Made by a program: the position numbers and the translations under genes. Shown here in pieces: positions 24,594 to 51,539 of a DNA stretch of 64,000 bases (its first letter is position 1; each line of letters begins with the position of its first letter). The notes under the pieces were generated by a model. It saw only the letters and a program-made list of their open reading frames with translations, was not told where the DNA came from and did no database searches. Source of the stretch: Selaginella tamariscina (Eukaryota > Streptophyta > Lycopodiopsida > Selaginellales > Selaginellaceae). The stretch spans positions 1-64,000 of the forward strand of contig PUQB01000540.1 of the NCBI GenBank assembly GCA_003024785.1, in the 5' to 3' direction.

Positions 24594-26557
24594 TTGAGCT
24601 TGAGAAACCCTTAAGTAAAATGATTTACCTATTTTTGTTCTCGCCTGCACAATTATCCATCTGTAAAAGCAAATGACGAAGAAGCTTATTTGATTGAGGA
24701 CACATGTACACTATTTGAGCTCCCTCCACTGAACTAGAACTCTCAACAGGGCCATCTGTTTTTTGTGCAGGCTGCTGACAATGCCTCTCATATTCCCAAG
24801 TAGCCTCAAGTGCAAACGTGTTCATGAGAGCATTATGTAAAGGTTGAAGGTGTTGTTTCTTCACTTTGAGATCACTAATAGGACTTGTCTGTGAGTGGGC
24901 TTCAAGGTTTCCGAAACACATGGCCAACGACCCAATAGTGAAATTGGAGTTGCTAGACCAATGTGGAAGTGAAAAGTGTGTCCATATGACTCACAACTGT
25001 GTCCATGTGTTAACACATATGTCAATGAAATCGGAAGTTTTATGACATTTCCAAGGCACTTTGGTGTTGTAACGAGCTTTGAATGCTGGTCTTTGAATGA
25101 TCCATCTTGTCATGGATCAAGCACAGGTACTTTGATGGGCATGACACAGAAAACATGCAGTGTGCATGGTATTGAGATCGGCAAGTTTGTTGTGCAATCA
25201 TGTGGGCCTCCATATTTTTGAATGGCAGTGATCTTCACCAAGGTTTTTGCACAAGCCTCTGCAGCCTTCAATGATGTATAAGTGTCACACTTGGCAAAGC
25301 TAGAGTGTTTTGCAATCTCTACATCCTTAAAATGAGTATTCCATATGTTGTTGAAGGTACCAAGGCAGATTGCTTGGAGCCCCATCAAACTGATGCACTT
25401 GTTCACATGTTCACACAGCTTCAATTGAGTGTAAATTGAAGGCAAAACCTTGAGATTTTCCCTGACCCCTGCATTTGTGGTTTGGCATTTGTGAGGCATC
25501 CTGTCTACATTTGCTTCCACAAAAGCCTTGAGTATCTCTATGGCTGCCATAATGTGAGAGCGGGTTTTAACCAAGCAAGTGTTCCCATGAACTGAGGTTC
25601 GCGCTCCATCAAGCCACTCATCCCTTCGATGGTAGAACGTGGTCTTTGGGATCCCGTATATACTGTACCAAGCTTTGAAGTAGATGGCCACCTTATTAAA
25701 TATCATGGATGTACTATGATAACCTGTGTCCGAGGCCATTCCATCAATACACCCAGTTAGTGTAGCATATACAAACTCATGTCTTTGCTTTTGGGTGAGC
25801 GTACAAAAGACATGTCTACATTGGGTAATTTTATTCCGGTCTGCCATCTGACAACACTTCTTCTTGCAGCAGTCAATCGTGGAAATGCTCGTAACACTTT
25901 CGGAAGATGTAGGATTCATCTTCACCCTGTTGCTGAAACTTGCAGGGGAAGATCTGCAACCCATGAATCGCCTTTTTCTTACAATAGAACTAATGCAAGG
26001 AACCTTTTCAAATATGAGTTGTTCTTCCGGGTTGTTATTATTAAAATCCAACCCAGAATGTGTTGAACCATCTTGCCGTCTTAATTCAGATGTTCGCCAC
26101 CTCATGAAGGATCCAGGATGCAATGTGCCATTAGGTGAAACCTCTGTCACAACTACACCCACGAAGTCGGACCCTAGTTTCTCTTCTGACATTGCTTCCA
26201 TTGTATTTATAACTGTGATGATGCCTCTTCCGACCTCAATCTCATGAAAAAGAGAATCACCTCATCCATCATAGCAGGCAAGCCATTATCTAATAAACTC
26301 GTGCTACTATTTATTTGTGACTCTACATATTCTGTGTCAGCCTTAATTTCATCTAAATTCCACAATACAGGAGAACCCTCCTCAAATTCCATTCCCGGAA
26401 CCTCAACATGCTTATAAATGGTGTTTACCCATACGTACACACAAGATCCTTGGGCAATATTGTGACATGATGCATTATCATTTCGAACTTCCACAGTTCT
26501 AGTGCCAACTATCTCGTTGTTCCGAAGAAGACATACTTTATCTCCAGTATTAAACAT
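24594..26557 (-). pseudogene. DUF7869-like transposase gene, copy 1, truncated
   Basis: The first methionine is MFNTGDKVCLL at 26,557, just after a possible splice acceptor (TGCAG). An N-terminal part with VEVPGMEFEEGSPVLWNLDE resembles promoter-side domains of plant transposase proteins. The next long frame (26,201-25,110) has a Cys-rich segment (CCKKKCCQM...QCRHVF), a helix-turn-helix-like stretch (YFKAWYSIYGIPKTTFYHRR) and the block FNNIWNTHFKDVEIAKHSSF followed by AKCDT, which is typical of this family. Downstream on the same strand LLQMDNCAGENKN (about 24,670-24,630) matches an acidic position of the RNase-H-like core. Copy 1 has one small frame break near 26,240 and further breaks before the DNC block. 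It lacks the GHTHENID end. The family assignment is from motif memory; I know of no biochemical activity. Confidence 0.65.
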
Positions 26558-26704
26558 ATTGTCCTGCACATAAATAATTGTGTTATTTATGATATCTGTT
26601 TATGCAATATTTCTAAGAAATCTGACTTGCGGTTGCTTAATAATATGCATGTGCAATAATACATAATTATATATAGAGATAATATCTCATGCTTGATTAA
26701 TACA

Positions 26705-27560
26705 ACTCCCGCCCACGACTCCCTCCGACGAGGAACGGTGGGCGGGATTAATCCGCCGCCGACTCTACCCTTTCAGAGAGAGTAGGCGGGATTAATCCCA
26801 CCGCCGACTCTACCCTTTCAGAGAGAGTAGGCGGGATTAATCCTGCGTCGATTCTCTCCGGTGAGGAAGAGTCAGCGGGATTAATCCCGCCGCCAACTCT
26901 ACCCCTTCGGAGAGAGTCGGCAGGATTAATCCAGCCGCGGACTCCCTCCAACGAGGAAGAAGCAGCGGGATTAATCCTGCCGTAATTTCCACCGACGAGG
27001 AAGAGGTGGTGGGATTAATCCTGCTGCCGGATCTTCCTCGTCGAAGAGAGGCGGCGGGATTAATCCCGCTATAACTCCCTCTGACGAGGAAGAGGCAGCA
27101 GGATTAATCGCGCCGCAACTCCCTCCAACGAAGAGAGGCGGCGGGATTAATCCCGCCCACAACTCTCTCCGAAGCTATGATTTCAAAAAGATCTCGGGAT
27201 AATCCTGCCCACAAATCTTTAAAACAAGGAAGTGATGGCGAGATTAATCCCGCCACCCCTTCTCTGCCTCCTAGAATGGTTGGCGGGATTAATCCCGCCA
27301 CCCCTCTCTGCCTCCTAGAATGGTTTGCGAGATTAATCCCGCTGACAACTCCTTTTAATAAATTTAGGTAACTCTTTATCAGTTGAGAGAGTTATCGGCG
27401 AGATTAATCCCGCCGCTCTTTTTCAGAGGCGGAGAAAGCATTACCCAAACTAATTTTGCCATGGCTATCAAAGAGATGGTGGTGGTGGAATTAATCCTGT
27501 CACCTCTTTGAAGAGGCAAAAAAGAAATGGTCGGATTAATCTCGCCACCTCGGCTAATTG
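26705..27560. repeat. Palindrome array 1
   Basis: About 17 copies (counted by eye) of a palindrome with consensus GGCGGGATTAATCCCGCC, with centres about 44-46 bp apart through 27,150 and wider beyond. Spacers are of the CTCCCTCCGACGAGGAAGAG type, with some reverse-complement versions. The palindrome is better kept than the spacers. It lies 5' of the copy 1 transposase-like gene. Confidence 0.92.
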
Positions 27561-27880
27561 AGAATATTAAGTTAGAAGGATATTTAAACGGGATAAATCC
27601 CTAACGGAATATATTGTAATCCTAATGCATTCCTAAACCCCTAAATTTTAATTTTAAGAGAGAATGTAAAAGAGTGAATCTTTATAAGTATATCTAAATT
27701 TGTTTATAATACTTACTTGTAAACAACACTAAAGGCGCCGTGCTTTCTTATAAACAATAGCACCCAATTTAATGTCGCCCATAAGCTGATCACTATGAAA
27801 AAAGAAGATTTGAAGAGTGAAAATACAAAAATAAAAAAACCCTTGCCGGAGAAAGAACCAGATCTGAATTTAAGTGGGAA

Positions 27881-28142
27881 ATTAAATGCATTTTTAAATT
27901 TACATATAAGACCGATAATACTTATGTCAGAAATTCAAATTTTTTGAAAAGAACAGAAAATAAAATTTAAGATGAGTTGACACAAATAACCGACTAATAT
28001 ATATATTGTATATATGTGTACTAATTCCAATGAGTGTTATAAAATTGCATTTAATGTTATTCAAGTGATTCAAGCTGTTTGATATTACGAAATTTTAGTA
28101 ATTATTCTACATTCTTAATATTCAAGGTATATTATTTAAGTT

Positions 28143-28186
<44 letters not shown>

Positions 28187-28879
28187 CTTATACAATAAAT
28201 AAATTGATATATTATTATGTATCATTTAAAATATATTCATAGTCTGTTTTAATATTATTTTCTTAATTACTCAAGTAATTAATTTACATTTCCTACTATT
28301 AATGAGATATTCTTTATTATTTTCTTATTATTCCAAGAATATTCCAATATTAAACATAATTTCATAATTAATTTAGTTAATTATTCAGTACTTGATCTAC
28401 ATTTGTATATATTAATGGGATTTTCTCAATTAATTTCTTATTATTTCAAGAATATTCCAATGTTAAACCTTATTATCAATATTAAATTAATATATTTATT
28501 AAAACTATATATGGCTATATTTAGATAAAATCATATATTATTATGTATAATTTTAAATATGTTCATAGTGTGTTTATTAATATTATTTTCTTAATTATTC
28601 GATGTTTGTTTTGCACACATATATAAACACAATCATAAATATATATATACATGTGCAAACACATTAAAAACACTTACAGAGACACATATGCACACACATG
28701 CACAAGCCCTAAACCAAACTGGAGAAATATGTTGCTTCTTTATTAAAAACATCATATTCAACAGATGTATGATCTATATGTACTCAGTTTGTGTATAACA
28801 CATTCAATTTACACATGTAATATGTATGTGTGTATACACATGTGTATGTATATATGTACTAATATATGCAATGTGTACA
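27881..28879. other. AT-rich DNA, no gene seen
   Basis: Includes a (TA)n tract at 28,144-28,187 and repeated ATTTTCTTAATTATTC/TTTCTTATTATTTCAAGAATATTCCAAT phrases between about 28,250 and 28,600, which suggests local duplication of about 130-190 bp units. No coding signal. Confidence 0.5.
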
Positions 28880-29460
28880 ATTTTAATTTGTTAACACTCT
28901 CTCTTTCTCTTATACATACACAGTGTCACCATGCATAATCCCTTCTCTCATACATACACACCATGCATGATCCATAATATGTACTATCTCTCTTCTCTCA
29001 TACATACCACCATGCATGATCCATAATATGTAGCCTGTCTCTCTTCTCTTATACATATACACCATGCATGATCCATAATATGTATTGATGTTACAATATT
29101 ATGTACTATGTATGTATATTTGTGTATAATATATGTATGTATATATGTGTACAAAATTAATTTTTTAACACTCTCTCTTCTCTCATACACACCATGCATG
29201 ATCCATCCTAAACCCTAAACCCTATGTAACATAATGAATTTACACAGGTAATTGTATGTAAGTTTGTGTGTATACATGTGTGTATGTATATATGTGTACT
29301 AATATATGCAATATGTATGAATTTAATTTGTTAACACTCTCTCTCTTCTCTCATACATACACACCATGCATGATCCATGTTAATATGTACTGTCTCTCTT
29401 CTCTCATACATACACACTATGCATGATACATAATATGTACTCTATCTCTCTATATATTAT
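28880..29460. repeat. Tandem array of an ACCATGCATGATCCATAATATG phrase
   Basis: At least six units of the pattern CTCTCTTCTCTCATACATAC followed by ACCATGCATGATCCATAAT recur with variable spacing, interrupted by longer repeats of the GTATGTATATATGTGTAC type. A CCTAAACCCTAAACCCTA telomere-like motif sits at about 29,209-29,225. Confidence 0.75.
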
Positions 29461-29779
29461 ATATTAATATGTATGTATGTTTATGTATATAATACTATGT
29501 GTGTATATATGTATTGCTACACGTGAAACTTTAACACTCTCATGGACACACATGTTAAACCCTTGCATGATTTATATTTTTGGGTGTATGTGATACACTC
29601 ACGCACACCACACGCTGATATATATAATAAAAGAATATTCGTTTAGGGTGAATCTATATTTTATTCTTTTTAGGGTTTAAGTATATTCTTAGAAGGAATA
29701 TTCGATTAAGGTTAATATATATTTTATTTCTTTAGGGTTTAGGTATATTCTTAGGGTTTCAAGAAGAAAGGCGGTGGAG

Positions 29780-29973
29780 GCAATGGCTGTGAAATCTCCC
29801 TTTTTCTCACACACAGGTGAGAGATCTCTCTCTCTCACACGCACACTCCTGAGTTTTTATTTATTTATTTTTATTCACATATACATTTATCTGTGTATAT
29901 ATCTTAATAATAAATTTATTTATCTATCTCTCGCATACACACGCACACTCCTATACATACATACATACCATAT

Positions 29974-30033
<60 letters not shown>

Positions 30034-30468
30034 TGTGTGTGTTGTGTATCTGATTAATTTATTAATTTTATCTCTCGCACACACACGCACACTCCTGTTT
30101 ATCTATATGATTTTATTTGTTTCGCTCACACACGCATACACATGATATACATATACACATATATATAACCTATATATGTGTGTGTGTATCTGTATAATTT
30201 TATTTATTATTAATTTTATCTCTCGCACACACACGCACATTCCTATATATATATATATATTATATAATATATATATATATGTGTTGTGTGTGTGTTTGTT
30301 TATCTGTATGATTTTATTTGTTTCACTCACACGTGCATACACACGATATACATATACACATATAATATACCTATGTACATATATACATACATATATTATG
30401 TGTACTAGTATCTGTATAATTTTATTTATTTATCTATCTCTCGCACACACACGCACACTCCTATACAT

Positions 30469-30502
<34 letters not shown>

Positions 30503-30800
30503 GTGTGTGTGTGTGTGTTTGTTTATCTGTATGATTTTATTTGTTTCGCTCACACACGCATACACACGATATACATATACACACATATATATACCTATGT
30601 ACATATATACATACATATATTATGTGTACCAATATCTGTATAATTTTATTTATTTATCTATCTCTCGCACACACATGCACACTCATGTATATACATATAC
30701 ATATATATACATATATATATATGTGTGTGTGTGTGTGTATCTGTATAATTTAATATTATTAGCACACACATACAATATACATATACATATACATATGTGT
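29780..30800. repeat. Compound microsatellite array, about 230-250-bp higher-order units
   Basis: Each unit is (CA)n-(TA)n-(TG)n followed by TTTATCTGTATGATTTTATTTGTTTCGCTCACACACGCATAC and then ATATACCTATGTACATATATAC. Four to five units are visible. The CA-TA-TG core is self-complementary and could fold back. Long reading frames across it are repeat artefacts. Confidence 0.8.
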
Positions 30801-30804
30801 GTGT

Positions 30805-32700
30805 GTATCGGTGGGATTAATCCGCCGCTATATGGTTAGCCCCGCAGGCGGCAGGATTAATCTCGCCGCTCATCCGTTTCCTCATGAGTGGCGGGATTAA
30901 TCCCGCTGCCAAGGCCCTTCATGCAGGTCATGAGCAGCGGGATTAATCCCGCCGCCCTTCATGCATGCTATTCGTTTAGCTTCATGAGTGGCAGGATTAA
31001 TTCCACTACCCATGAGGAGTGGCGGGATTAATCCCATTGCCCATGGCCTACGTGAAGGGCCTAAGCGGCGAGATTAATCCCGCCGCACGCCCATGCCCTG
31101 CGCAGAATGCGGCAGGATTTATTCCGCTGCCAATGGCCTGTGTGAAGGGCCTAAGCGGCGGGATTAATCCCGTCGCATTCTGCACAGGGCATGGGCGTGC
31201 AACATGATTAATCCCACCGCCCATGGCCTACGTGAAGGGCCTAGGCGGTGGGATTAATCCTGCTACCCATGGCCTGCGTGAAGGGCCTAAGCGGCGGGAT
31301 TAATCCCGTCGCACATGGCCTACGTGAAGGGCCTAGGCGGCGGGATTAATTCCGCTGCCCATGGCCTGCGTGAAGGGCCTAGGCGGCGGGATTAATCCCG
31401 TTGCCCATGGCCTGCGTGAAGGGCCTAGGCGGCGGGATTAATCCCGCGCACACCCATGCCCTGCGCAGAAGTCAGTGGGATTAATCTCGCCACTCATGTC
31501 CTGTGTGAAGGGCCTAGGCGGCGGGATTAATCCCGCTGCCCATGGCCTGCGTGAAGGGCCTAGGCGGCGGGATTAATCCCGCTGCCCATGGCCTGCGTGA
31601 AGGGCCTAGGCGGCGGGATTAATCCCGCCGCACACCCATGCCCTGCGCGAAAGCCGGTGGGATTAATCCGGCCACTCATGTCCTGCGTGAAGGGCCTGGG
31701 CGGCGGGATTAATCCAAACACACACCCATGCCCTGCGCGGAGTGCGGCGGGATTAATCCCGTCGCACGCCCATGCCCTGTGCGAAGTGCGGCAGGATTAA
31801 TCCCGCCGCATGCCCATGCCCTATGCGGAGGGCAGAGGGATTAATCCCGCCCCTCACCCATCCCTTCTCGGAGGGCGGGGGGATTAATCCTGCCACCCAT
31901 ATATGTGTGTGTGCGCATGATTTACGAGAGGGCGACGGGATTAATCTCGCCGACCCTTCTATGCCTGGTGGCGGGATGAATCCCACCACCCTTCTTTTTT
32001 CCTCCATTGGTGAGTCGAATCAATCCCGATCACCTCTATTTGAAACAAAAAAGGTTTACAGCATACTAATGGAGGGGACTGAGAAGGGTGGCGAGATTAA
32101 TTTCACCATCCCTTACATGGTGCGCAAGATTAATCTCACCGACCCTTTTATGCTTGGTGGCGGGATGAATCCCACCACCCTTTTTTTTTCCTCCATTGGT
32201 GAGTCGAATCAATCCCGATCATCTCTATTTGAAACAAAAAAGGTTTACAGCATACCAATGAGGGGACTGAGAAGGGTGGCGAGATTAATTTCACCATCCC
32301 TTACATGGTGCGCAAGATTAATCTCGCCGACCCTTCTATGCCTGGTGGTGGGATGAATCCCACCACCCTTCTTTTTTTTCTCCATTGGTGAGTCGAATAA
32401 ATCCCAATCACCTTTATTTGAAACAAAAAGGTTTACAACATACCAATGGAGGGGACTGAGAAGGGTGGTGAGATTAATTTCACCATTCCTTACATGGTGC
32501 GCAAGATTAATCCCGTCGCCTTTCTGGAGCCTCTAAAGGGGTGTGCCAAATAAATCTTACCCAGTTCTCTCTGAGACCGAGAAGGGTAGCGGGATTAATC
32601 CCGCACACCCATTTAGAGCCTCCAAAAAAGTGACGAGATTAATACCGCCGACCCTTTTAGGAGTATAGAAGGGGTGGCGAGATTAATCCTGCCCCACCTT
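30805..32700. repeat. Palindrome array 2, the largest
   Basis: Around 40 copies (by eye) of the GGCGGGATTAATCCCGCC-type palindrome at about 45-bp spacing. The spacers differ from arrays 1 and 3: in the core block (31,200-31,720) they read CATGGCCTGCGTGAAGGGCC followed by TAGG, nearly identical between units, which implies recent homogenisation. The array ends about 370 bp before the ATG of the ParB-like gene. Confidence 0.93.
31952..32516. repeat. Three 188/189-bp higher-order units inside array 2
   Basis: Units begin at 31,952, 32,141 and 32,329 with GACCCTTCTATGCCTGGTGG or a close variant and run through TTCCTCCATTGGTGAGTCGA and AAAGGTTTACA. Each unit contains several of the palindromes, some decayed (GGGATGAATCCC). 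Confidence 0.88.
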
Positions 32701-32809
32701 CCATGTGAATATATATGTGTATTAGTATATATAAGTTGTATATCTCATTTTATTTACTTTTATCATCTTATCATAATATTTTGAGTAAAAGCCAGTAAAC
32801 TATATGAAA

Positions 32810-32892
32810 CTGTCCAAAGCTCACATTTGTGGTGGTTCTAAAACCAAATGTTATCTGTCTTTTGCACTAGCACAAATGTGAGCTTTGGACAG
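32810..32892. repeat. Perfect 22-bp inverted repeat (hairpin) between array 2 and the ParB-like gene
   Basis: Arms 32,810-32,831 and 32,871-32,892 are exact reverse complements (core CCAAAGCTCACATTTG) around a 39-bp loop. No poly-T follows, so it does not look like a classical terminator. It could be a small foldback element or a regulatory hairpin. Confidence 0.9.
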
Positions 32893-33066
32893 TTAATCCC
32901 ATCCACTTCTTTCTGAGACAAGAGGGGTGTATGTGAATTTATCTGTGTATTAATTTTGTTTATTCAGGTTTATACAAGTGTGTGTGCGTTTTTATATGAA
33001 TTGTATTCATAGTGTATTATTTTGCAGAAGGACGATTTAATCAAACAAGGAGATTCAATCATTAGT

Positions 33067-36000
33067 ATGGAGTCGTCGTCAAATTCTGGGTAAGAATTAA
33101 AATAAAATCTGTTATATTCGGATATGTACTTGAAGAACTAATCATTTTTGTATTCAGTTGTGGAATTGAGGTAACATTGAAGACGAGAGCAGGAGAAGAG
33201 ATGGGCAGGGGTATTCTGGAATCAACTTGGCCATATTTCAAACTAAACGGGAAGCACATTGGAGCAACCATGGTATCACATCGCATGGATAATCAAAACA
33301 ATGGAAAGTAGATTCACTAGTCAAGCACCCGAAAGCAGTCTGCAAACCTAGATTGGACGATGTTCGACACATATGCTTGCTCCATCCAATGTCACGTTCT
33401 CGAATCCAGAGGTCACCAGTTACAACATTAATCTCGGGTGGTCTTGTCGACTTGTGGATAATGATGTTTACGTGTTCACTAATGATGTTGACCGTGGAGT
33501 TCTTCTTTAACTCAACGAAAGCCCATCTATGGAAGAGATCCAATTAAATGTCTACTTCGAAGATCTTCAGACTCATCGAGTAGGTATATTCTTAACAGAG
33601 ATTACTTCACAATACAGAACATCCACAAGTGGAGCAATCGTCCCACTTCACATTGAAGAAGAACACAACGACATCATTAGGAAGATTGAGAGGGTGGCTC
33701 GGTCCCAGGTTCTTTATAGATCACGTTCAATTTGCTTAGGAATCTTCGGAAGCTGAAAGAGTGTGCCGAGAACAGACAGCTGCAATCAAGGATCACACGT
33801 TGATTCAAATCGTAAAAGAAAATCATCAGTCATTTTGTCAGCTGCACCTATGGCATCCATGCTGCAATAAGCCACGAGGAAATGATGTTGAATGATAGGA
33901 TTTATGAGAGTAGGGTTAAGTATTGCAGCGTCAACTCAAACTTCAATTACAGGCCACTCAATTAGGAACGTGTAGCTGAGCTCATGGAGAAGATGAAGGA
34001 CGACAATTCTTACACCGTTTCACATAATGCTGTTTTGTGCCCATACTACAAAAGAAAGAAAGGCGCTGACAAAGTGTGAATCACAACATCAGAACAAATC
34101 ATGAAGATTCAGACGGAGAATAGAAAATCAATCAAGTACTACATCATTAGTGGCCAGTACACAATAACGGCAGCCCAACGACTTCTCGATGAACATAACA
34201 AAGGAACGATGGCAATAAAACTTTCTGAGCATACCCGTGAGAAGCTAACGAAAAGATCGGCATTTTTAGCTAAGCCGAATCTCACAATCGAGCAGTACCA
34301 TAAGTTATCGATGGAATGGGACGCTACTGACACCAACCACTACAACAAGCAAAATATGGGAAAAGTTCAAACACACGCGAGCCATGTGGGAATCTCTTCA
34401 GTGACCACAAAGAGCTATTGCAGGGAATACACAATGTGCGGACTACCGGGTAAGCAAATTGTCTGGGCGGGATTTATCTCGCCGGTATATTAATCTGTTC
34501 TTTTTTTCAGAGAGTTGAAGAAATTATAGCAGTTGATTTTGCCCTAGGTGGGCGGGAAGGAAATATCCTTTTTGATGATGTTGATTTCTTGTCCCGACGA
34601 TAGGATCTTTGCCAAATGGTTGGGGATTATGGAATCCTTTTCAAAAGGAACACTGAAGAAGAAGCAGACAAGTGAAGGGGAGCCCTCAAAAAGTCTGCAA
34701 AGAAACCCAGTAAGACGCCGAAGGCTAAGTCTGTTCAATCTACAAAGGATGTAACAACGATTTCAAGCTCACATGGTTGAAGCCTTTAAATGGAACAACG
34801 ATGGAGGAGATGGAAGTCTTGGCTGATTTGGTGATGATGGCAAACTACAAATTAAACAGCAGCCCCACCTCTCCTTTTCATCTCAAGGCAATGGAGTTGA
34901 AGACGGTCAGGCACTTCAAGGAGTGGTTGGGAATACACTGCCACAAACTGGGTTGGACCTCGCTTCAACATACGAAGAGGTCAGCAAATATTTGCATGTG
35001 ACAAACGATGATATGCTTGTCGAATGGGTGAACCAATCGGAAGATCTGGGCAAGAATCTATTGCACGCCAACGCCAAAAAGGAGAACATTGGGATGACGC
35101 CTTCTCTTATGGCAGTCCTTCAGCAGCGGAGAACCGAATTGAACCTTATAAAGGAGGATGCTACGAATCACGACAAGCCCTACAGATGTTTGTTGTTAGA
35201 TTCGGAGACTTTATGGGGTAACATCACTGCTTGTAGGAAACCGTTTCAATTGTTCGTGATGGATCGGCGGGTGTCAAAAAATCTTTCGACAGATAGGGCA
35301 CTAGAGGATTGGTGGAGAAACTTAGCCGTGCAAGCATATACAAGAAGGTATTTATTATTGAATTCATGCTTGCACTCTTCACTGATACCTACTTTTTCAG
35401 GTATTTATTTCTTGATTCTTGCTCATGTCACCGATACTTTTGCCTTCGCCTTCGCCAAGAAGAATAACATCGTTGGACAGGATTTTATATGAATGATGCT
35501 GATCCAAGTGCATTGATACGTTGTTCACTTGGTTGTTAGGAATGCGCCAAACAATTTCAAGCTTCCAAATGACTGGCCAGGCATCTGTTTGCACTCCAAC
35601 GGCCCTGAACCTCCATCCGATACACCGATAGTGAGAGTGACGTATTCGGCAATGTACGTTATCCAAACATTACAAGTCAAGCGGCACGGAGCATCGTCAA
35701 CTTGATCAGGGGTCCTCACAGTGATGCGTGGGTTTTTGACTACTGCACTAGGGGGTCCGTCTTGAAGGAGTGTTACCTTCGGCATACATGTGTGTTTGCC
35801 GTTGAAAAGGATAAGACCATGGTTGAGGACCTGAACAAGTGGATGATAGAGGTTCTCAACTGATACCCCAACAAACCCATAAAGGAGTATTTGAGAAAGT
35901 TCCCTCCGAGAAGTGCGATAGCTCTGAAGACGAATCTGGTTCAATGTCGGAGTCTGAGGACGAACTTCAATCAGATATTAGACCGGAAGTTATCTCGAGG

Positions 36001-36120
36001 AGTACAGAACATTCACACACTCCATTACCCATGGAAACATCAAAGAAGATACGAAAGATCATGAACCATCTCACAAGCGGCTTAGACCTTCTTCGCCTAC
36101 TCAGAAGGTAATAGCAAAGA
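33067..36120 (+). pseudogene. Decayed intron-bearing gene with ParB-like and possible methyltransferase-like parts
   Basis: The start is MESSSNSG at 33,067. Clear GT-AG introns are 33,090-33,157, 34,450-34,510 (which contains one GGCGGGATTTATCTCGCC palindrome) and 35,348-35,400. Frames change several times between exons, so no full-length product is encoded as read. At 34,101-34,400 the text YYIISGQYTITAAQRLLDEH, then a YHKLSMEWDATDTNHYNKQN segment, resembles the GQH box of ParB-like domains found in large plant and algal proteins. At 35,660-35,865 SDAWVFDYCTRGSVLKECYL then TCVFAVEKDKTMVEDLNKWM has the look of the SAM-binding end of DNA methyltransferases. The tail (35,890-36,105) is acidic, Ser/Glu-rich then Lys-rich. 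Both domain names are tentative; the ParB-like one is the better supported. Confidence 0.45.
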
Positions 36121-36299
36121 AGAATTGTTAATGAGTTCTTAGAGTTGAATAGTTGTAAATGAGTGTAACATAAGGCATTTTTGTATATTTCGTTTATATT
36201 TGTACAGAAAATAAATTCTCAAGGATTAATGAAGCTTTTAGTTCAAACATGGGTCACACATTAACAAGGTAAATAATATACCTGATAATTATAAGGACA

Positions 36300-37270
36300 G
36301 TTAATTATCATTTGCAGATGTAATGAAACAGTTGAGAACATAGATTTTCAACATTGCCATGAGTAAGAGAGGGGTTTGGCGAAAATTTCTTGTGCCACAT
36401 GTCAGAATGATAGAGTTCATGCAGGAAATGGATAATAATGCAGCTCAAAACATCGTTACCATGAGGACCATTTCAGTTTTTTCATCACCATTTCTATTGG
36501 CTTCAGTTCCTAAATCAATTTCTTCAGCACCTACAATATCTGAATCTTGTAAGGATGATGTACAATTAAATGATAAAGGTATAGACAACGAATAGTGTCA
36601 ACAGATAAATGTGAAAGGGAGCAAACAAGTGAGTTGCAAAGCATTCAAGAGGCAACGCTACCCCATGTTACGCATGGCCATTTTGTTGTTGGATGTCAAT
36701 GGTGTTTTGCTTCATCGACAAAGGCCCGAGGATAAAAAAAAAAGAAATCAAACAAGGAGATTACATTCCTGTCATGGTAAATTTCGATATATTATTTTTT
36801 GTCTAGGGTTGAACTGTCTCTTTCAAAAGCTTAGGAGTGGGTGCACTTGTGGGGATTTGGTCATGCATGCAGATTCACAACTTAACACGCTACTGAATTT
36901 GCTTAAGAAACATTGTAGTGTTGCAGAAGAGGTGATTCGTAAAGATTGGATTTTTGACTAGTGAATGTGTTATAAACCTCTTGAATTTCACAATATAAGA
37001 AAGGAAAGGCAAGCCATACTTCTATAATTGAAAGATTAATTGGGCTTCATGGGGAGATTAATCAGTTAAGGATAATGAAGAACACACTATCTTAGTGGTA
37101 TACGACTCTTCTCAGAAGGTTATGTTTAACCAAAACATTGCTTATATTCATCCAATCACTTTTGACCCATATTCTGATACCAACCATGGATGAGCTAGTA
37201 ACTACTTGGATACGTGCCTCAGAAAGAAGAATCTCGAAAACTTTTGTGAATAGTATCCACTGTATCAAAC
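36300..37270 (+). pseudogene. FCP1/NLI-type HAD phosphatase-like remnant
   Basis: AILLLDVNGVLLHRQRPEDK (about 36,676-36,740) matches the first motif of FCP1-like phosphatases in its plant LDLNGLLLHR form. An expected middle block (VGIWSC...HNL) follows near 36,830-36,890 in another frame. NTLLVVYDSSQKVMFNQN, AYIHPITFD, then LDTCLRKKNLENFC (about 37,080-37,250) match the family's C-terminal DDSPYK...NP...L..L block. The catalytic DxDx(T/V) reads DVNGV. The frames are broken and at least two second-motif residues are altered, so it is unlikely to be active. The preceding frame from 36,359 (MSKRGVWRKFLVPHV) may be its N-terminal part. Confidence 0.5.
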
Positions 37271-38430
37271 ATTTCCTGATGCTTTTCTTTTTCGTGATTT
37301 TGAATTTTATAAAATGAAGGATAGTAACCGGGCGCTTACAATATTATTCTTAAGGAACGTCATTTTTAGATGAGCCTTTATGCAGACCTTGTCTTATCAC
37401 ATCTTATGTATTAACAAGGATGACAACTCCTAATTGCATTCGTGAGAGTGTTAGGTGGTGGCAACAATATCAAAATATTGACCAAAATAATTCGATTAAT
37501 TTGGAGAGTGATGATTTAAACAAAATAAGGAGATTTCTCTGTATGGTTAGGAAGAAAGTATTTATAAAAATTAACATGTTGATAAGGAAATGATTTCATT
37601 TGTAATTATGTTTGATAGTATTTTTTTAATTATTGTAAACTAATTTTAGAATGAAGAATAATATGAATATTCTAAGTTTAGGAATATTCCTTACTAAGTA
37701 AGGTTATTGAAGGATTAATTTGTTTTAATTAATATTTAAGGCTTAATTACATATTAATTAAATAATTAATTAATAATTAAAACTTAAGTATTAATTAGCA
37801 ATTTATTTTATATTCTCATTTTCACGTATCATGCCCATTTTAATTACTACGTGCATATCCCTTCTTTATTGAAAGGATTTATGTTTCTTCTTTCTTCCCA
37901 ATTGTAAGTTTAGCCCCATAATAGAACTTCCTATTATGAGATGAGAATGTGGTAACAGAAGATTGTCTCATAGAAAGTTACATGTTATATTGGCCTTCCT
38001 TTCTTGCTTCATTTCTCCTTTATCTTTCCACACGTGCCACGTAGTCTACATTCATCCACAGTATGCTCAAGATTTTTAAACTTACCTTGGCATCCAATTC
38101 CTTATATATAAAGCTCCCTTTCAAATATTTAACCAATTGTAATAAATTAGCCTTATAGTCTCAAACTTTAATAAGTTCTTCTCATCATCTGAACTATTCA
38201 TCTTTCTCTTTAAGGACTTCATCTTTTCTTTTGCTATATTCTTTATTTCTCTCTTTTTTCATAATTTTTTCAAATGTTTACAAAATCTTTATGTTTATTT
38301 CTTGAATCATCATTATATAATGCCTATATAGTTCTATAATCCTTGTTGATACCATTGAAGTAAAGCATCTTTCTTAACATATAGTTTACATTTTTTTTTC
38401 ATGCTTCTTAAAACAATGTATATATTCTTC
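37271..38430. other. AT-rich region, no gene recognised
   Basis: Mostly TTAATTAA-type sequence and pyrimidine-rich stretches. A TATATATAAAGC element occurs at 38,103-38,114. No protein family is seen. Confidence 0.45.
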
Positions 38431-38439
38431 TATAGTTTC

Positions 38440-39183
38440 AGCTTTTCCTTGCAGGATATTTTGGAGCTTCTCTATGTACTCTTTCGACAACTCTTTCTTT
38501 TTAAAATATTCTTTAAAAGTTTCTGTAATAATCTTCTCTCACATCTTTCTCTAACTTATAATACTAATCAAATTCATTTCTTTTTAATATGTGAGGAAAT
38601 ACAAACAAATTATCTACATTGCTTAATTATACAATTTTATAACTTCCTCAATTATAACTAGTGTCTTTTAAGATTTTTCTTCTTTCTTGTAGAAAATATT
38701 GAATACATCAATGTTTATGGGAAAAGTGTCCTATTAGACATTCTTGGTGGGCTTTCTCTACCACCTTCCTCCACAGTATAACAGAAACTTTTAAGAGATC
38801 CTCATCCCGATCTACTAGGATATTCTATTCTTTGAGGAGTTCTTTTGTTGCAGTATGATAGTCTGTATCGTAGTGTATATCTTCAACACCTTTAGTGACA
38901 CTTTTTACTATTTGATCAATGAATCTTCTAAGAGCTTCTTGCCTATTGGCAATATATATTTGCTCTGCACGAGTAACCTCTCTCTCAGCTTGTATATTAT
39001 CTCTTTTCTTACTAGGGATGAATTAGAATTATGATACTTCCAAGGCTCCATCTATTATCATATATACACGCTTCTTTTTCCACTTAAGTTTTACTTCTTT
39101 CAAAGCTATTTCACATATATTGCTTCTTACTTAGGAATTACGAATTCCTACACAACAATGACAAAATCCCTCCATGGTCGCCA
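38440..39183 (-). pseudogene. Unrecognised broken coding region
   Basis: On the minus strand MATMEGFCHCCVGIRNS begins at 39,183. After breaks it is followed by a charged helical stretch (REVTRAEQIYIANRQEALRR, FIDQIVKSVTKGVEDIHYDT) that looks like real former coding sequence of coiled-coil character. I do not recognise the family. It stops short of the assembly gap. Confidence 0.3.
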
Positions 39184-39238
39184 TGTGTTAATATGAAAAA
39201 GCTTTCTTATGTGTAGAAATCACTATTCACATAGTATA

Positions 39239-40045
39239 NNNNNNNNNNNNNNNNNNNNNNNNNNNNNNNNNNNNNNNNNNNNNNNNNNNNNNNNNNNNNN
39301 NNNNNNNNNNNNNNNNNNNNNNNNNNNNNNNNNNNNNNNNNNNNNNNNNNNNNNNNNNNNNNNNNNNNNNNNNNNNNNNNNNNNNNNNNNNNNNNNNNNN
39401 NNNNNNNNNNNNNNNNNNNNNNNNNNNNNNNNNNNNNNNNNNNNNNNNNNNNNNNNNNNNNNNNNNNNNNNNNNNNNNNNNNNNNNNNNNNNNNNNNNNN
39501 NNNNNNNNNNNNNNNNNNNNNNNNNNNNNNNNNNNNNNNNNNNNNNNNNNNNNNNNNNNNNNNNNNNNNNNNNNNNNNNNNNNNNNNNNNNNNNNNNNNN
39601 NNNNNNNNNNNNNNNNNNNNNNNNNNNNNNNNNNNNNNNNNNNNNNNNNNNNNNNNNNNNNNNNNNNNNNNNNNNNNNNNNNNNNNNNNNNNNNNNNNNN
39701 NNNNNNNNNNNNNNNNNNNNNNNNNNNNNNNNNNNNNNNNNNNNNNNNNNNNNNNNNNNNNNNNNNNNNNNNNNNNNNNNNNNNNNNNNNNNNNNNNNNN
39801 NNNNNNNNNNNNNNNNNNNNNNNNNNNNNNNNNNNNNNNNNNNNNNNNNNNNNNNNNNNNNNNNNNNNNNNNNNNNNNNNNNNNNNNNNNNNNNNNNNNN
39901 NNNNNNNNNNNNNNNNNNNNNNNNNNNNNNNNNNNNNNNNNNNNNNNNNNNNNNNNNNNNNNNNNNNNNNNNNNNNNNNNNNNNNNNNNNNNNNNNNNNN
40001 NNNNNNNNNNNNNNNNNNNNNNNNNNNNNNNNNNNNNNNNNNNNN
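39239..40045. other. Assembly gap (807 N)
   Basis: Run of undetermined bases. The gap cuts the inner end of DUF7869-like copy 2, so the true inner boundary of the inverted pair cannot be read. Confidence 1.
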
Positions 40046-40339
40046 TCTAGTTCTTTCTCCGGCAAGGGTTTCTTCATTTTTGTAATTTTCACTCTTCAAA
40101 TCTTCTTTTTTCTTGATAATAATCAGCTCAGGAACGACATTAAATTGGGTGCTATTGTTTATAAGAAAGCACTGCGCCTTCATTGCAGTTTACAAGTAAG
40201 TATTATAAACAAATTTAGATATACTTATAAAGATTCACTCTTTTACATTCTCTTTTAAAATTAGAATTTAGGGGTTTAGGAATGTACATTATATTCTGTT
40301 AGGGATTTATCCCGTTTAAACATCCTTCTTACTTAATAT

Positions 40340-41065
40340 TCTCGGTTAGCCGGGGCAACGGATTAATCCGGCCATTTTTTTTCCCTTTTAGAAGAGGTGG
40401 CGGGATTAATCCCGCCACCATCTCTTTGATAGTCATGGCAGAATTAGTCCGGGTAATGCTCTCCGCCTTTTGAAAAAGAGTGGCGAGATTAATCCTGCCG
40501 ATAACTCTTTTAACTGATAAAGAATTATCTGAATTTATTAAAAAGAGTTGTCGACGAGATTAATCTCGCCAACCATTCTAAGAGGCAGAGAAGGGGCAGG
40601 ATTAATCTTGCCACCACTTCCCTGTTTTAAAGATTTATGGGCAGGATTTATCCCGAGATCTCTTTGAAATCATAACTTCGAGAGAGTTTGGGCGGGATTA
40701 ATCCTGCCAGCTATTCCCCATCATAAGAATTGTGGGCGGGATTAATCCCGCTGCCTCTTCCTTGTTGGAGGAGTTGTGGCGAGATTAATCCTGCCATTTC
40801 TTCTTCATCGGAGGGAGTTGTGGTGGGATTAATCCCACCGTCTTCCTCATCAGAGGGAGTCCGCATCGGGATTAATCCCACTGCCTCTCTCTGACGAGGA
40901 AGATTCTGCGGCGGGATTAATCCCGCCAATTCTTCCTCGCCGAAGGGAATCGGCGGTTAGATTGATCCTACCAACTCTCTCCGAAGGGTAGAGTCGGCGG
41001 CAGGATTAATCCCGCCCATCGTTCCTCGTCGAAGGGAGTCATGGGCGGGATTAATCCCGCCCATC
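40340..41065. repeat. Palindrome array 3
   Basis: About 16 copies (by eye) of the same palindrome at roughly 44-48-bp spacing, with CTCCCTCCGACGAGGAAGAG-type spacers as in array 1. It stands 5' of the copy 2 transposase-like gene and is homologous to array 1 in inverted orientation. Confidence 0.92.
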
Positions 41066-41217
41066 AGTTGTATTGATCAAGCATGAGATATTATCTCTAT
41101 ACATAATTATGTATTATTGCACATGCATATTATTAAGCAACTGCAGTCCAAATTTCTTAGAAATATTGCATAAACAAAATATTATAAATAACACAATTAT
41201 TTATGTGCATGACAATA

Positions 41218-42321
41218 TGTTTAATATTGGAGATAAAGTATGTCTTCTTCGAACAATGAGATAGTTGGCACTAGAACTGTGGAAGTTCGAGATGATAATA
41301 CATCATGTCACAATATTGCCCAAGGATCTTGTATGTACGTATGGGTGAACACTATTTACAAGCATGTTGAGGTTCCGGGAATGGAATTTGAGGAGGGTTC
41401 TCCTGTATTGTGGAATTTGGATGAAGTTAAGACTGACACAAAATATGCAGAGTAGCACGAGTTCACCAGATGATGGCTTGCCTATTGTGATGGATGAGGT
41501 GATTCTCGTTCTTCATGAGATTGAAGTTGGGAGAGGCATCATCACAGCTATAAATCCAATGGAAGCAGTGTTAGAAGAGAAACTAGGGCCGACTTTGTGG
41601 GTGTAGTTGTGACAGAGGTTTCACCTAATGGCACATTGCATCCTGGATCCCTTGTGAGGTGGCGAACATCTGAATTAAGACGGCAAGATGGTTCTACATA
41701 TTCTGGGTTGGATTTCAATAATAACAACTCGGAAGAACAACTCATATTTAAAAAGGTTCCTTACATTGGTTCTTTTCTAAGAAAAAGGTAATTCATGGGT
41801 TGTAGATCTTCCTCTGTAAGTTTCAGCAAGAGGGTAAAGATGGATCCTACATCTTTTGAAAGTGTTACGAGCATTTCCACGATTGACTGCTAAAAAAAGA
41901 AGTATTGTCAGATGGCAAACTGGAATGAAATTACCTAATGTAGACATGTCTTTTATACGCTCACCCAAAAGCAAAGGCATGAGTTTGTATATGCTGCACT
42001 AATTGGGTGTATTGATGGAATGGCCTCGAACACAGGTTATCAGAGTACATCCATGGTATTTAATAAGGTGGCCATCTGCTTCAAAGCTTGGTACAGTATA
42101 TACGGGATCCCAAAGACCACGTTCTACCGTCGGAGGGATGAGTGGCTAGATGGAGCGCGAACCTCAGTACATGGGAACACTCGCTTGGTCAAAACCCGCT
42201 TTCACATTATGGCAGCCATAGAGATATTCAAGGCTTTTGTGGAAGCAAATGCAAACAGGATGCCTCACAAATGTTGAACCACAAATGCAGGGGTCAGGGA
42301 AAATCTCAAGGTTTTGCCTTC
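41218..42321 (+). pseudogene. DUF7869-like transposase gene, copy 2, 5' part
   Basis: MFNIGDKVCLLR starts at 41,218, then NNEIVGTRTVEVRDDN, VEVPGMEFEEGSPVLWNLDE, GVVVTEVSPNGTLHPGS, and the helix-turn-helix-like CFKAWYSIYGIPKTTFYRRR. Copy 2 has several frame breaks in this part. Identity to copy 1 is high at both DNA and protein level, so the two copies diverged fairly recently. Confidence 0.65.
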
Positions 42322-45300
42322 TGTTGGCATACCTGGGTCGATATGGTTGCCGCTTGCAGGAACGGGACCTATGATTCCAGTCTCCCGAAGGGACCTTCTA
42401 CGGGGTTGATTATCCCCCTCCATCCTGCGGCCGTAACTCCTTTGGCCATCTGCACCCCTTCGGTCCGCTGCTCTACCATTAGTGCAGCCGCCTGTGGTAA
42501 CCTTTTGCTCAAGAGTTTGGCCAGTCAGTAATAATCGTCCGTGTTGTGAGACCCGCGGATGTTACATACCCGGCAATACTTGTCCCCGCGTGCGGTGTAT
42601 CCCATTTGAGCCAGTGTCGTGGATAAGTCTTCCTTTCATGTGGCCCTCGTTGGGTTTCCCCCCGCTGCAGCTACTTGTGTCCCTTGGTTCCCGACCATTT
42701 CTCTCTTCTGGCCAACTTTGGAGCATCATAGAGGTTTTCCTCATTCAAGGTGGTGTCGTTTGCCCCTTCTGCGTCTGATTTGTCCTGCGTCTTCCTTTCT
42801 TGGTGTCTTTCAACTTCCCGCTTCTCAGCCTTCTTGGCATACTGGAGTAGTTTGTCGAACGTCCTGTCGTCATATAAGCTGATCCACTTGCGGATCTCCG
42901 GCCGCAGTCCCTTTTGGTACCACATTTTCTTGGTCAGGTCAACTGGGGCGTCTCTCATCCGGGCAATGTACCCAACATGCGGACCATATATTCATCAATC
43001 GACTCTCCTGCTTTCTATTTCAAGCTCGTTAGCTTGTGGATCACCTTCCTTTCACTCTTTTCCTCTCGGAAGGTATCCAGAAACACCCTTCGTGCGGTTT
43101 CCCAGCGAGCTCCTTCGTTTGCCTCGTGGAATCGCATCCACCAGTGTGTGCCTTCTTATCCAGAGTGCATGCGAAGGCACTCAGCTTCTTGTGATTGTCG
43201 ATTACACTCCGAAGTTTGCGCACCTATTCAAACTTGTGTATGTGTTGGTCTGTGTCTTCCCCCTTCGCTCCACGGAATGAGGCTAAGGGCACTTTTATGG
43301 TGCTCTCTTGCATCCGATTGAGCGCGCGGGCTAGTAAGGTAACCGGGTCGGTTTCCATGGCATCCCGTTGCGCCTGAGAGGTGTTCCAATCCGAACCCTC
43401 CGCTTCGGACGTGGTGTAGTCCACGTCCAGGTATTATGCGGGTACCTTTCTCCTTCTTCGCGGCCCTGCCCTCCTGTTGAGGGTGGGTGACGAGGATGGG
43501 CTCCTCCCGGCTATCCCTCGGGAGCCCCCTCCGCGGGACCAACCTGATGGCTGGTGGCACGGCTTACGGTATTCCCTCCTCTAACGAGTAGTTTTGTAGG
43601 ACCGTGCGCGGAATCCCCCTGCGACGTCTAGACGGTCGTGATTGATGGGGCGATTCCTCCTCGCCTTGAGACGGTATCCCCTTGTCTAGTGATGGTTGCA
43701 ACTCTACCGTGTGCCCTGGTGGGATTTCCCTCGCGGGGACAATGCGATACTAGTCGCTCGGGTGAATCTTCTCCTGCCTTGGACGAATTCCTCTCATCCC
43801 TTGTCCAAAGTGGCCATTGTGCGCCCCTCTTTCTAGTACCTCCTCCTAGTCCATCAGCTCATCGATGTCCAGTCACCTTTGCACAGGTGGTCGTCTCATG
43901 TGAACCCGGCCTTCCGAAGCCTTGGGTTCTCATCCTGGTAACCACCCTGGCCTACTGCATTGTCCGATCGACTGAACTCCTGAGTGCAGAGGTTGCCTTG
44001 TTGGCAATCGATGTCCCTCCCTATAAGGGCCTTCCGGATGAGCTCTTCCTCCCCTCTTTCCGAACAGCCACGGGCCCCCTACATCACCCTGGTGGGTGAT
44101 GACGGCCCTGGGTTTCCTACCTTACATCCGTCATGGCGCTAGCCACGCTGGACTTCCGACTCACGTCCCCGTCGCTATCCATGTTGCTTTCGCCCCCTCG
44201 AGATTCATGCCTCCGTCGCAGGCCTACCCTTTCCTAGGTGTGCAAGGTTTCCTCCTGGGGTACTCGTCAAACACAAGTTTTGCTCTTTGGTGTGGGGGCT
44301 CATCATGGCCGTCACTTTCGCCTACATCGTGAGGTGGAGGGCTTTCATCGTCCTGCCATCCATCCCATTCTGCATCATAAGTTATTGTCAGGTGAAGTCG
44401 CCCATCCGAGTGCTGTTCATACCCACATGCTGTTGTACCTGGACTGACATTTGGATGTGCTGCGATTCCTTCATATCCTTCTTCGTTGATGGTGGCGTGC
44501 GACTGCCTCTACCGCTGGTGTGCTGGGTCTACCATTGCTCAAAGATTCGGCCATGCGGCATTTACTCGTTCCCTTGGGTAGTGAGGCAGGGTCGATTGCG
44601 GCAACTAAGGTGCCTCGCCGGCTTCCATCAACCTCCCTCGGCCAGCCCATCACATCCTTCTGGCCAACTGTTGCTCGTCAATCTTTATTTGTTTGAACGA
44701 GTTAATCCCAGCTCTCCTTCGAGCCGCAACTCTGCTTGCTACTATGAACTCCATCCGTGTGTACTATCTATCCCTTTGTGGTCTTCACAAATGGTCGTCA
44801 AGGGACTTCGCAGGGCCAAATGTGGTGCTTCTCAGGAAGCTTCAGTAGTTGCCATGACGTTGTGGAGAGCATCCAACTCTGGGGTCCGAACCAGCAAGCT
44901 GGCCTTACCTCAGAAGTGATGGAAGGTGTTGGATGGCCTCTACCTAGACACTGCGAGGGTCCATGTACAAGTAGGGGAGTTCTACTATGGTAGTTTTGGC
45001 AGAGAGCATTGCTCAGCCCAGGAGTGGATAAGCGGGGAACACCCGCTTGTAAGGTGAATAGAAGGAATATGGATAAATTATATTGCCTGTCCGAGTACAA
45101 ACTATCTCGACAGAGGAGCAAGATATAAACACAGACTTGACTCCTAAAAAGACCCCGACCCACTACCAGCCTTCTTGCTTATATAGTGGGTTACCTAGCG
45201 CTAGACCCTAGGTACATGTGGCGCCTTCCTACTGGTTTGCCGCCTTGTGATAAAGTCCTGTCTGTCACATTTATGCGCCTCCCTCCCGCGTGCTATCCTA

Positions 45301-45425
45301 CGCACCATGGGTAGTTGGTCTGGATGATTGGATCTACGCCTGGTTACGCCACCGCTTGACATCGGTCACCATCAGTTCGTACATGAGGTACCTTCCTTAT
45401 CCGGCGCTTTGTTCCGTTGCTCATC
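42322..45425 (-). mobile_element. Ty3/gypsy piece: terminal repeat, leader and gag (fossil)
   Basis: Read on the minus strand from 45,425: short internal 3' end, terminal repeat region (about 45,345-44,940, matching 63,580-64,000), leader, then gag-like text including MDYTTSEAEGSDWNTSQAQR (43,424 downward) and KMWYQKGLRPEIRKWISLYD (about 42,925-42,870). The piece is the same family as 56,396-64,000 and stops at 42,322 where the inversion begins. It is broken in many places. GC-rich plus-strand frames here are antisense shadows. Confidence 0.8.
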
Positions 45426-45744
45426 CGGGCCGTCTGGTCATTTGATGGTATCTGACCACCGTCAACCAATCCATCCTGTGTTCCATGTTTCTTTGTTGGA
45501 GCCTTGTGCCCATTTTGCATCATCGAGAACTCTTTAATGTAACGTTTCGTCTCGAGCTTCCACCAGCCATTCGGATCCATCCCGTGCCCATCTTGTTCAT
45601 ACTCCTGATCTTGTTACGAGTTTCATCATCGATATGCTCCTGATCTTGTTACTGAGTTTCATCATCAATATCCTACTCGATATCCTACAAAACCTGGCTA
45701 CATACTCGATATCCTAATAAAACTTGGCTACAAAACCTGAACTA

Positions 45745-46165
45745 GTGATGCGTGGTGCTCGTCATCAGTTGCTGGTGAACCTGAGTTCGAGGTTGGTTGC
45801 TGAAACCTGGCTACAAAACCTGGACCAGTGACGCATGGTGCTCGTCATCAGTTGCTGGTGAACCTGAGTTCGAGTTGGTTGCTGTAAATGCACTTGGGAG
45901 CATGCTGCTCATCATCAGTTGCTGGTGAACCTGAGTTCGAGGTTGCTGCAAATGCACCTTGGGAATGCTGCTGTCATCATTGCTGGTGAACCTGAGTTCG
46001 AGGTTGGTTGCTGTAAACGCACTTGGGAGCATGCTGCTTGTCATCAGTTTGCGAACCTGAGTTCGAGGTGCTGCAAATGCACCTTGGAGAATCCTGCTGC
46101 TCGTCATCAGTTGCTGGTGAACTTGAGTTCGAGGTTGCTGCAAACGCACTTAGGAGCATTCTACT
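45745..46165. repeat. Tandem repeat, about 65-70-bp units, in the gypsy 3' region
   Basis: Six or seven units contain CATCAGTTGCTGGTGAACCT then GAGTTCGAGGTTG, with a variable TGTAAATGCACTTGGGAGCA part. Confidence 0.85.
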
Positions 46166-46187
46166 CATCTTGTTCATGATCATGATC

Positions 46188-46432
46188 TTGTTACTGAGTT
46201 TCATCATCGATATCGGTGCTCGTCATCAAAGGGGGATAGTGTTACTGAGTTTCATCATCGATATCGGTGCTCGTCATCCAAGGGGGATTCATCATTGATA
46301 TCGGTGCTCGTCATCAAAGTGGGGATAGTGTTACTAAGTTTCATCATCGATATCGGTGCTCATCATCAAAGTGGGGGATAGTGTTACTAAGTTTCATCAT
46401 CGATATCGGTGCTCATCATCAAAGTGGGGGAT
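46188..46432. repeat. Tandem repeat, about 53-58-bp units, before the polypurine tract
   Basis: Four to five units of GTTTCATCATCGATATCGGT followed by GCTCATCATCAAAGTGGGGGATAGTGTTACTAA. The polypurine tract of the element is itself the end of the last unit. Confidence 0.88.
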
Positions 46433-51495: not shown

Positions 51496-51539
51496 TCGGA
51501 CGGACCAATGATGCTAAACCCTAACCCAATTTTACCCTT

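Follow-up and report, generated by a model that had tools for sequence, protein, structure and literature searches.

Palindrome arrays at both gene starts of a two-gene transposon in Selaginella tamariscina as possible operator sites

Palindrome arrays and element copies in the window

Positions 1 to 64,000 of contig PUQB01000540.1 from Selaginella tamariscina, the whole stretch of DNA that was analyzed and that is called the window below, hold two incomplete copies of a two-gene element together with three arrays of an 18-bp palindrome, GGCGGGATTAATCCCGCC. One gene of the element codes for a protein with matches to the Pfam family DUF7869, and the other, named here the second gene, had been called 'ParB-like' in an earlier note on this DNA. 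That note had proposed that a protein of the element itself uses the arrays as a binding platform, an idea that remains the best-supported class of explanation and is partly supported by the evidence described here.

The palindrome is present in the window six times exactly, 42 times with up to two mismatches, and 65 times with up to four, and 64 of these 65 sites lie in the three arrays. Array 1 (D type, minus strand) runs from 26741 to 27546 and has 16 sites at up to four mismatches. Array 2 (A type, plus strand; 30810 to 32693) has 35 sites at this threshold and 38 at up to five mismatches, and array 3 (D type, plus strand; 40399 to 41061) has 13, or 14 starting from 40356 when five mismatches are allowed. 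The remaining site, GGCGGGATTTATCTCGCC (34466 to 34483, plus strand), has the variant centre ATTTAT and sits in the second gene, within an intron-like stretch of 61 nt (34450 to 34510), in agreement with the lone intronic palindrome reported earlier. Beyond the arrays and this site, the looser threshold of five mismatches yields a single further match in the window, a poor one at position 50678. Earlier counts of about 17, 40 and 16 thus correspond to 16, 38 and 14 sites at up to five mismatches, at positions that were essentially right. The proposed spacing of about 45 bp was likewise accurate, with a median of 45 and with 60% of 314 intervals measuring 43-46 bp across 18 arrays from the window and from copies on contig C1 of the genome. 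Periods of 44-46 bp are among those that Tandem Repeats Finder assigns to the arrays.

Arrays 1 and 2 belong to element copy 1 (24595 to 37857), in which two divergent genes flank a central spacer and the terminus on the DUF7869 side is missing. DUF7869 copy 1 (24595 to 26599, minus strand) has frame breaks, and its homology ends at 24595; the second gene (33028 to 36958, plus strand) consists of exon-like stretches that contain stops in the window copy and is followed by a terminal inverted repeat (37830 to 37857, minus strand). Array 3 does lie upstream of a second DUF7869 copy, as had been noted, with the correction that it is part of a second, inverted copy of the element. The two copies are 83% identical where 25438-27862 is aligned with 42321-40046, and the second ends at 42321. 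Its DUF7869 gene is split into a 5' half (41210 to 42321, plus strand) and a displaced, inverted 3' half with stops (52657 to 54558, minus strand). All translated coding stretches of the window contain stops or frame breaks. The earlier picture of three arrays is therefore real in outline, with the qualifications that exact palindromes are few and that the DUF7869 copies are broken. An inverted repeat of 83% identity (42320-44711 and 56442-58812) edges the segment that interrupts DUF7869 copy 2, and the region from 42320 to 58812 looks like a nested insertion combined with an inversion.

Each of the three arrays lies 5' of a coding region, which bears out the earlier placement as far as the coding parts are concerned. 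The word upstream can be made more specific, since the arrays probably have a leader exon on one side and the first coding exon on the other, and are probably not in promoters. Putative leader introns can be drawn for DUF7869 copy 1 (26564 to 27716, minus strand; donor GTAAGT at 27716, acceptor ending at 26564), for the second gene (29817 to 33027, plus strand; donor GTGAGA at 29817, acceptor TTTTGCAG ending at 33027), and for DUF7869 copy 2 (40196 to 41210, plus strand; acceptor changed to GCAT), and these enclose arrays 1, 2 and 3, respectively. This assignment is made because the splice-like sites are conserved among copies of the element. For the DUF7869 gene, the donor-like sequence ACAA/GTAAGT precedes the array in all ten aligned copies, and the acceptor-like TGTGCAG that follows it is intact in eight of the ten, being deleted in copy Sc and changed in window copy 2. 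In the case of the second gene, all eight aligned copies retain the acceptor-like TTTTGCAG. The donor-like GGTGAGA is found in five of the six copies that align at that point (W, Sf1, Sf2, Sa and Sc), with AGTGAGA in the sixth (Sg) and no alignment there for Se and Sh.

The transposon that carries the arrays

The nature of the carrier was examined by comparing eleven 10-kb stretches and their neighbouring pieces, chosen from exact palindrome matches on contig C1, where the listed matches mostly form paired clusters. A repeat unit of 13.6-14.8 kb was found in six of the seven copies that have both ends, and the seventh (Sd), which includes a masked gap, measures 11.9 kb. The DUF7869 gene and the second gene diverge from a central spacer containing simple repeats, and each has one array on its 5' side. 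Copy ends coincide, and several copies have the inverted repeat ATGCA[C/A]GTTGTAACTAAA[G/A]TGGGCATG at both ends. Four-base-pair target duplications are evident in three of five independent copies with readable ends (ATGT in Sd, TTAT in Sf and ATAA in Sg), where Sf1 and Sf2, a segmental duplicate of 98% identity, are counted once. In Sa a duplication can be read on the assumption that a single end base has been lost, in Se the two sides disagree at one base, and Sh has a damaged left end. Partial copies also exist, including Sb without the DUF7869 half and Sc without the second gene. Because the ends coincide and are accompanied by inverted repeats and 4-bp duplications, the element is classed as a DNA transposon, and we regard the anatomy given here as practically certain. 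As a separate observation, a 20-kb tandem segmental duplication (G000:C1:894826-933300; 98% identical) has a whole element in each of its copies.

The arrays are distant from the ends of the element. In the copies measured, the termini are free of palindromes, and the arrays are found beside the gene starts, with about 3.8-5.2 kb between them and the nearer terminus. This arrangement bears on the possibility that the palindromes are transposase assembly sites used in transposition, as internal relatives of subterminal repeats, or sites of transposase autoregulation. Such roles would be in keeping with the finding that all main-family copies examined at the gene start have an array, and multiple contacts of this general kind have a precedent in the Hermes transposase, for which the parts of the source consulted describe binding to the transposon end through several BED domains (PMC10368747). 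The position of the arrays and the palindrome-free ends speak against these roles, which we consider improbable.

The exact 18-mer GGCGGGATTAATCCCGCC occurs 27,128 times in the 300.7-Mb genome, whereas neither the pattern read backwards nor a control with identical arms around TAATTA occurs in it at all. The genome also codes for chlorophyll a/b-binding proteins, one of which is close to Lhcb2-type entries and another to CP24, a protein that marks land plants, in keeping with a land plant host that is probably vascular. A motif this abundant could otherwise be mistaken for a satellite, and its residence in a high-copy transposon offers an explanation for its number. All 100 exact sites that were listed, from contig C1, fall in 17 array clusters. 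Ninety-five are in 15 arrays of the main family, four are in a cluster beside a related second gene (L009), and the last is in a related cluster (L010) to which no gene could be assigned. The alternative that the motif is an ordinary dispersed satellite, which had been named as a possible outcome of a genome search, was rejected on the evidence of these 100 of the 27,128 sites.

Since the compared stretches had been picked from palindrome sites, the association was also tested in reverse. DUF7869 genes were chosen by an exon 24-mer instead of by the palindrome, and 6/6 genes on six other contigs (from 100 listed places) hold 14-19 sites between donor-like and acceptor-like sequences. The recurrence of arrays beside DUF7869 genes that was predicted in the earlier note is thus found on contigs other than C1. 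The marker 24-mer at the DUF7869 acceptor has 1,474 genome occurrences (692 + 782), and a 33-mer of the second gene has 440 (232 + 208). The surroundings of 29 listed second-gene markers, located on contigs up to C147, were compared out to 15 kb, and 18 of these are accompanied by a DUF7869 marker in divergent orientation, one by a DUF7869 marker in the same orientation, and ten by none. One of these ten lies past the end of the DUF7869 list, and allele differences may account for others, as in Sa, where the gene is present and the exact marker is absent. A Pfam search gave at least 300 matches when 150 of 4,251 first-look candidates were scored, and some of these matches are in stop-free open frames of 900-1,092 amino acids.

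Related families carry related palindromes. The second gene of the L009 family has 43-68% protein identity to that of the main family over pieces, with 78% DNA identity over 1.1 kb, and in both L009 and L010 clusters of GGCGGGATTAATCCCGCC-type palindromes are set in longer repeats. A symmetric double variant, GGCCGGATTAATCCGGCC (GGCCGG...CCGGCC), is found in these clusters and has 44 occurrences genome-wide. In the same loci (L009:3801-6200 and L010:3601-5020), a higher-order repeat of about 500-700 bp, as judged by eye, is seen along with CA/TG simple repeats. A third family, L022, has a second gene that is 36-67% identical over pieces. Its region matching the intron with the single site contains GATAAATC-centred palindromes, and two more are near its 5' exon. 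One of the L022 palindromes, TGTGGGATAAATCCCACT, has changes relative to the main core in each of its arms. In their type of centre (ATTTAT/ATAAAT), the L022 sites match the intronic site of the main family. A strict scan detected three of the L022 sites, where block shuffles gave 0.05, and the others were recognized at a looser threshold or by eye.

Conservation of the palindrome core

If the palindromes are recognized by a protein, the core might be expected to be retained while the sequences between cores drift, as the earlier note had stated. Information per position is 1.49 bits (A arrays) or 1.58 bits (D arrays) in the core and 0.20-0.37 bits in the 16-bp flanks across 332 units, where the selection of units by core similarity inflates the core value. 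When units were anchored on GGATTAATCC alone (228 units), the four outer pairs were complementary in 73-90% of cases, the fifth pair in 54%, and pairs farther out in at most 41%. Spacers of 18-35 nt (118 from A arrays and 113 from D arrays, with the duplicate Sf2 left out) have an A-D similarity of 0.415 compared to 0.403 after shuffling, and values within types are 0.49 (A-A) and 0.53 (D-D). The cores of A and D arrays are 85% identical. Thus, the two types of array have unrelated spacers and a common core.

Differences between copies of the same array type indicate a slower rate in the core, albeit by a limited margin. Pairwise differences number 268/5976 in the core and 684/11536 in the spacer for A arrays, and 171/3903 and 377/6203 for D arrays. 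Transversions are likewise fewer in the core, at 109/5976 versus 313/11536 (A) and 29/3903 versus 141/6203 (D). These figures come from all 28 pairs of A arrays and from 17 of the 45 pairs of D arrays that were within length and identity limits, and the pairs are not independent. Over all pairs, the core diverges only moderately more slowly. Window array 2 departs from this trend, because in all seven alignments that include it the core differs at 0.117-0.149 and the spacer at 0.114-0.170 (for example, 0.149 versus 0.150). The earlier expectation is therefore upheld by the common core, by the unrelated A and D spacers and by the fewer core transversions. It fails for window array 2, where core and spacer diverge equally, the very result that had been named as contrary to it. 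Our interpretation is that window array 2 is a dead copy that drifts neutrally, and that constraint acts on the transposing lineage.

These comparisons permit an evaluation of the simplest alternative, in which the arrays are a neutral tandem repeat hitch-hiking in the transposon. The number of units in an array differs between copies, as would be anticipated for such a repeat, and the equal divergence in window array 2 is of the same kind. A neutral repeat is harder to reconcile with one core in two arrays that have unrelated spacers, with the deficit of core transversions, and with the presence of sites in corresponding regions of three families. The single intronic site is also unchanged in 8/8 copies compared (two of which represent one segmental duplicate), an identity that counts for little when taken alone, given that 82% of the flanking columns are invariant as well. 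Overall, a neutral origin of the pattern seems quite unlikely to us.

In addition to a site in DNA, a palindrome within an intron could act as an RNA hairpin on the pre-mRNA. Each unit can fold into a hairpin (-12.6 kcal/mol) with a UUAA loop on a 7-bp stem, and both the arrays and the single site are within putative introns. The pattern of conservation is of a different kind, with the four loop positions conserved at 0.92-0.99 (and the closing pair A7/T12 at 0.99), compared to 0.82-0.95 for the outer stem (positions 1-6 and 13-18). Substitutions on the sense strand are not in excess in the direction that would produce G-U pairs (C>T 128 versus G>A 153, p 0.15; 85 versus 92 for unique units), so there is no sign of G-U tolerance. 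Because the loop is better conserved than the outer stem and C>T changes are not in excess, recognition of DNA by a dimer fits better, and the hairpin reading, to which little probability can be given, was rejected on the lack of a G-U bias.

Palindrome units also differ from one another in a characteristic way. Transitions peak at C14/G5 (read by us as a CCG context; G>A and C>T) and are next most frequent at CG positions. This suggests methylation of dead copies, of which the peak is a possible CHG methylation footprint.

Element proteins, candidate binders and known systems

The DUF7869 protein is matched by PF25273 in two pieces (E 1e-10 and 1e-26) and is presumably the transposase. Motifs resembling D..D..D were seen by eye only, and sequence searches of the PDB gave no useful match for it. 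The end of the second protein is matched by PF03031 (NIF; E 2.4e-7), and the corresponding FCP1-like part of the window lies at 36362-36958. The catalytic motif of NIF phosphatases follows the rule DxDxT. In the copies read, DVNGV replaces this motif, which makes phosphatase activity of the second protein doubtful, and the NIF/FCP1-like region is possibly a captured host gene. An N-terminal segment is common to the two proteins (12/37 identical residues, pairwise E 4e-4), which suggests that they share an N-terminal domain.

The name 'ParB-like' for the second gene gained no backing from database searches, as no ParB match was obtained in Pfam (E<=10), PHROGs (E<=1) or PDB sequences (E<=5). 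A parS-like partition or replication site for a ParB-like protein would account for an 18-bp palindrome, and one protein piece has an ISGQHTITAAQ motif that resembles ParB by eye. The absence of family support led to rejection of this proposal, which hardly deserves any credence. Moreover, the palindromes reside in a chromosomal element that has inverted repeats and target duplications, and structure prediction for the 'ParB-like' piece from its single sequence (pLDDT 37) is uninformative. Searches farther afield were also negative. Viral contigs contained no relative of two DUF7869 pieces in a search sensitive to close relatives only, and viral and prokaryote contigs contained no exact two-site palindrome pattern, so a viral or prokaryotic origin was rejected. 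A relation to plasmids was rejected because PLSDB held no near match.

Two neighbouring sets of genes may be recorded here. At one locus, where the element lacks its DUF7869 half and has a single A-type array, a gene with a DNA-methyltransferase-like piece (L002:1638-3938, minus strand; phrog_67, E 5e-5) points away from that array. This gene was not found in the other loci compared. In the window, F-box/LRR-type genes at 10796-12117 and 19625-20846 form an inverted pair of 78% identity.

Conservation and dyad symmetry make it very likely that the palindrome is a protein-binding site. On the broader question of function, we find the case evenly poised that a dimeric protein, probably encoded by the element, uses the palindromes as operator arrays and counteracts silencing in the manner of VANC in VANDAL elements. 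It has been shown that the arrays adjoin both gene starts of a high-copy transposon. The further steps are that a homodimer would bind the 18-bp site as DNA, that the binder would be encoded by the element, for which the N-terminal domain shared by both proteins is the first candidate, and that, by analogy with VANC, clustered binding over both leader introns would keep the genes open and expressed despite silencing by the host. An element-encoded binder is favoured because exact palindromes, where sampled, occur only in element families and because the centre changes with the family. That an element protein binds the palindromes and does so in an anti-silencing role is a somewhat weaker prospect. 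The most specific version is doubtful. Under it, a transposon that does not look like Mutator would have independently evolved self-recognition of the VANC kind, in which a dimeric protein, with a DNA-binding part in common with the transposase, coats both leader-intron arrays and opens many related copies, and in which site and protein co-evolve.

Several observations must be set against an element-encoded operator protein, in addition to the equal divergence in window array 2. Covariation between the arms is weak, being near expectation at most pairs and higher at the first and fifth. The confinement of exact sites to arrays of the element covers 100 of 27,128 sites, all on one contig. Evidence for a shared N-terminal domain comes from a single short alignment, which was deliberately sought, and no Pfam DNA-binding domain reached the cut-off in the pieces searched, with HTH_psq (E 0.038) as the best match.

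Finally, the binders could come from the host. A transcription factor of the host, of a cell-cycle or homeodomain type for instance, might bind the arrays as enhancers or operators that the transposon exploits for timed expression. In keeping with such a factor, the core is conserved, dyad-symmetric and near both genes, the arms GGCGGGA/TCCCGCC resemble E2F-type half-sites, and TAATCC resembles a homeodomain site. The E2F consensus is not fully matched. All 100 listed exact sites on C1 are in element arrays, with no use by host genes in this sample, and the centre varies by family (ATTAAT, ATAAAT), as would be expected if it co-evolved with a protein of the element. A host binder is therefore thought unlikely, yet is given more weight than the other alternatives.

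Should an element-encoded binder with an anti-silencing role prove correct, there would be two independent examples of transposons whose own genes are marked by dedicated protein sites, from different types of transposon. It could then be tested whether transposon bursts generally rely on sequence-specific anti-silencing as a strategy, and the site, the candidate proteins and many natural variants of the arrays are available together in one genome.

Comparisons with known systems reveal both similarities and differences. Elements of the En/Spm (CACTA) type have many short subterminal sites that are bound by the element protein TnpA, whereas the present arrays are internal and located at both gene starts. 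Bacterial iterons and parS are repeated palindromic protein sites, but here the carrier is a chromosomal transposon and no replication or partition protein was identified. Target duplications of Mutator elements are 9-11 bp, in contrast to the 4-bp duplications of the present element, and no match to DUF1985 or DUF287 (VANC) or to a Mutator transposase in Pfam was obtained with the open reading frame pieces searched, which represent part of the proteins.

The closest parallel is VANDAL/VANC of Arabidopsis. According to the portions of the reports consulted, VANC21 binds to a motif of 9 bases that is found in the non-coding parts of VANDAL21, introns included, and these motifs have been amplified as tandem repeats (PMC5735166, PMC10398659). 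In the same portions, the motif is described as differing between related families and the arrays as varying rapidly, which is similar to the situation seen here, and the 9-base motif contrasts with the 18-bp palindrome. The two systems have in common that a motif specific to the element forms arrays outside its coding parts. By description, and not by transposase sequence, the element is also comparable to Sola2-type transposons, which are large and have AT-rich 4-bp target duplications and short inverted repeats, and for which the part of the source consulted does not mention palindrome arrays (PMC3627910). The duplications ATGT, TTAT and ATAA agree with this 4-bp, AT-rich style. A literature search found no paper with 'DUF7869' and none describing this element among the top-ranked results, a weak test of absence. 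Compared to known motif arrays, what sets this case apart is the combination of an 18-bp palindrome, paired arrays in putative leader introns, and a carrier with no recognized Mutator transposase.

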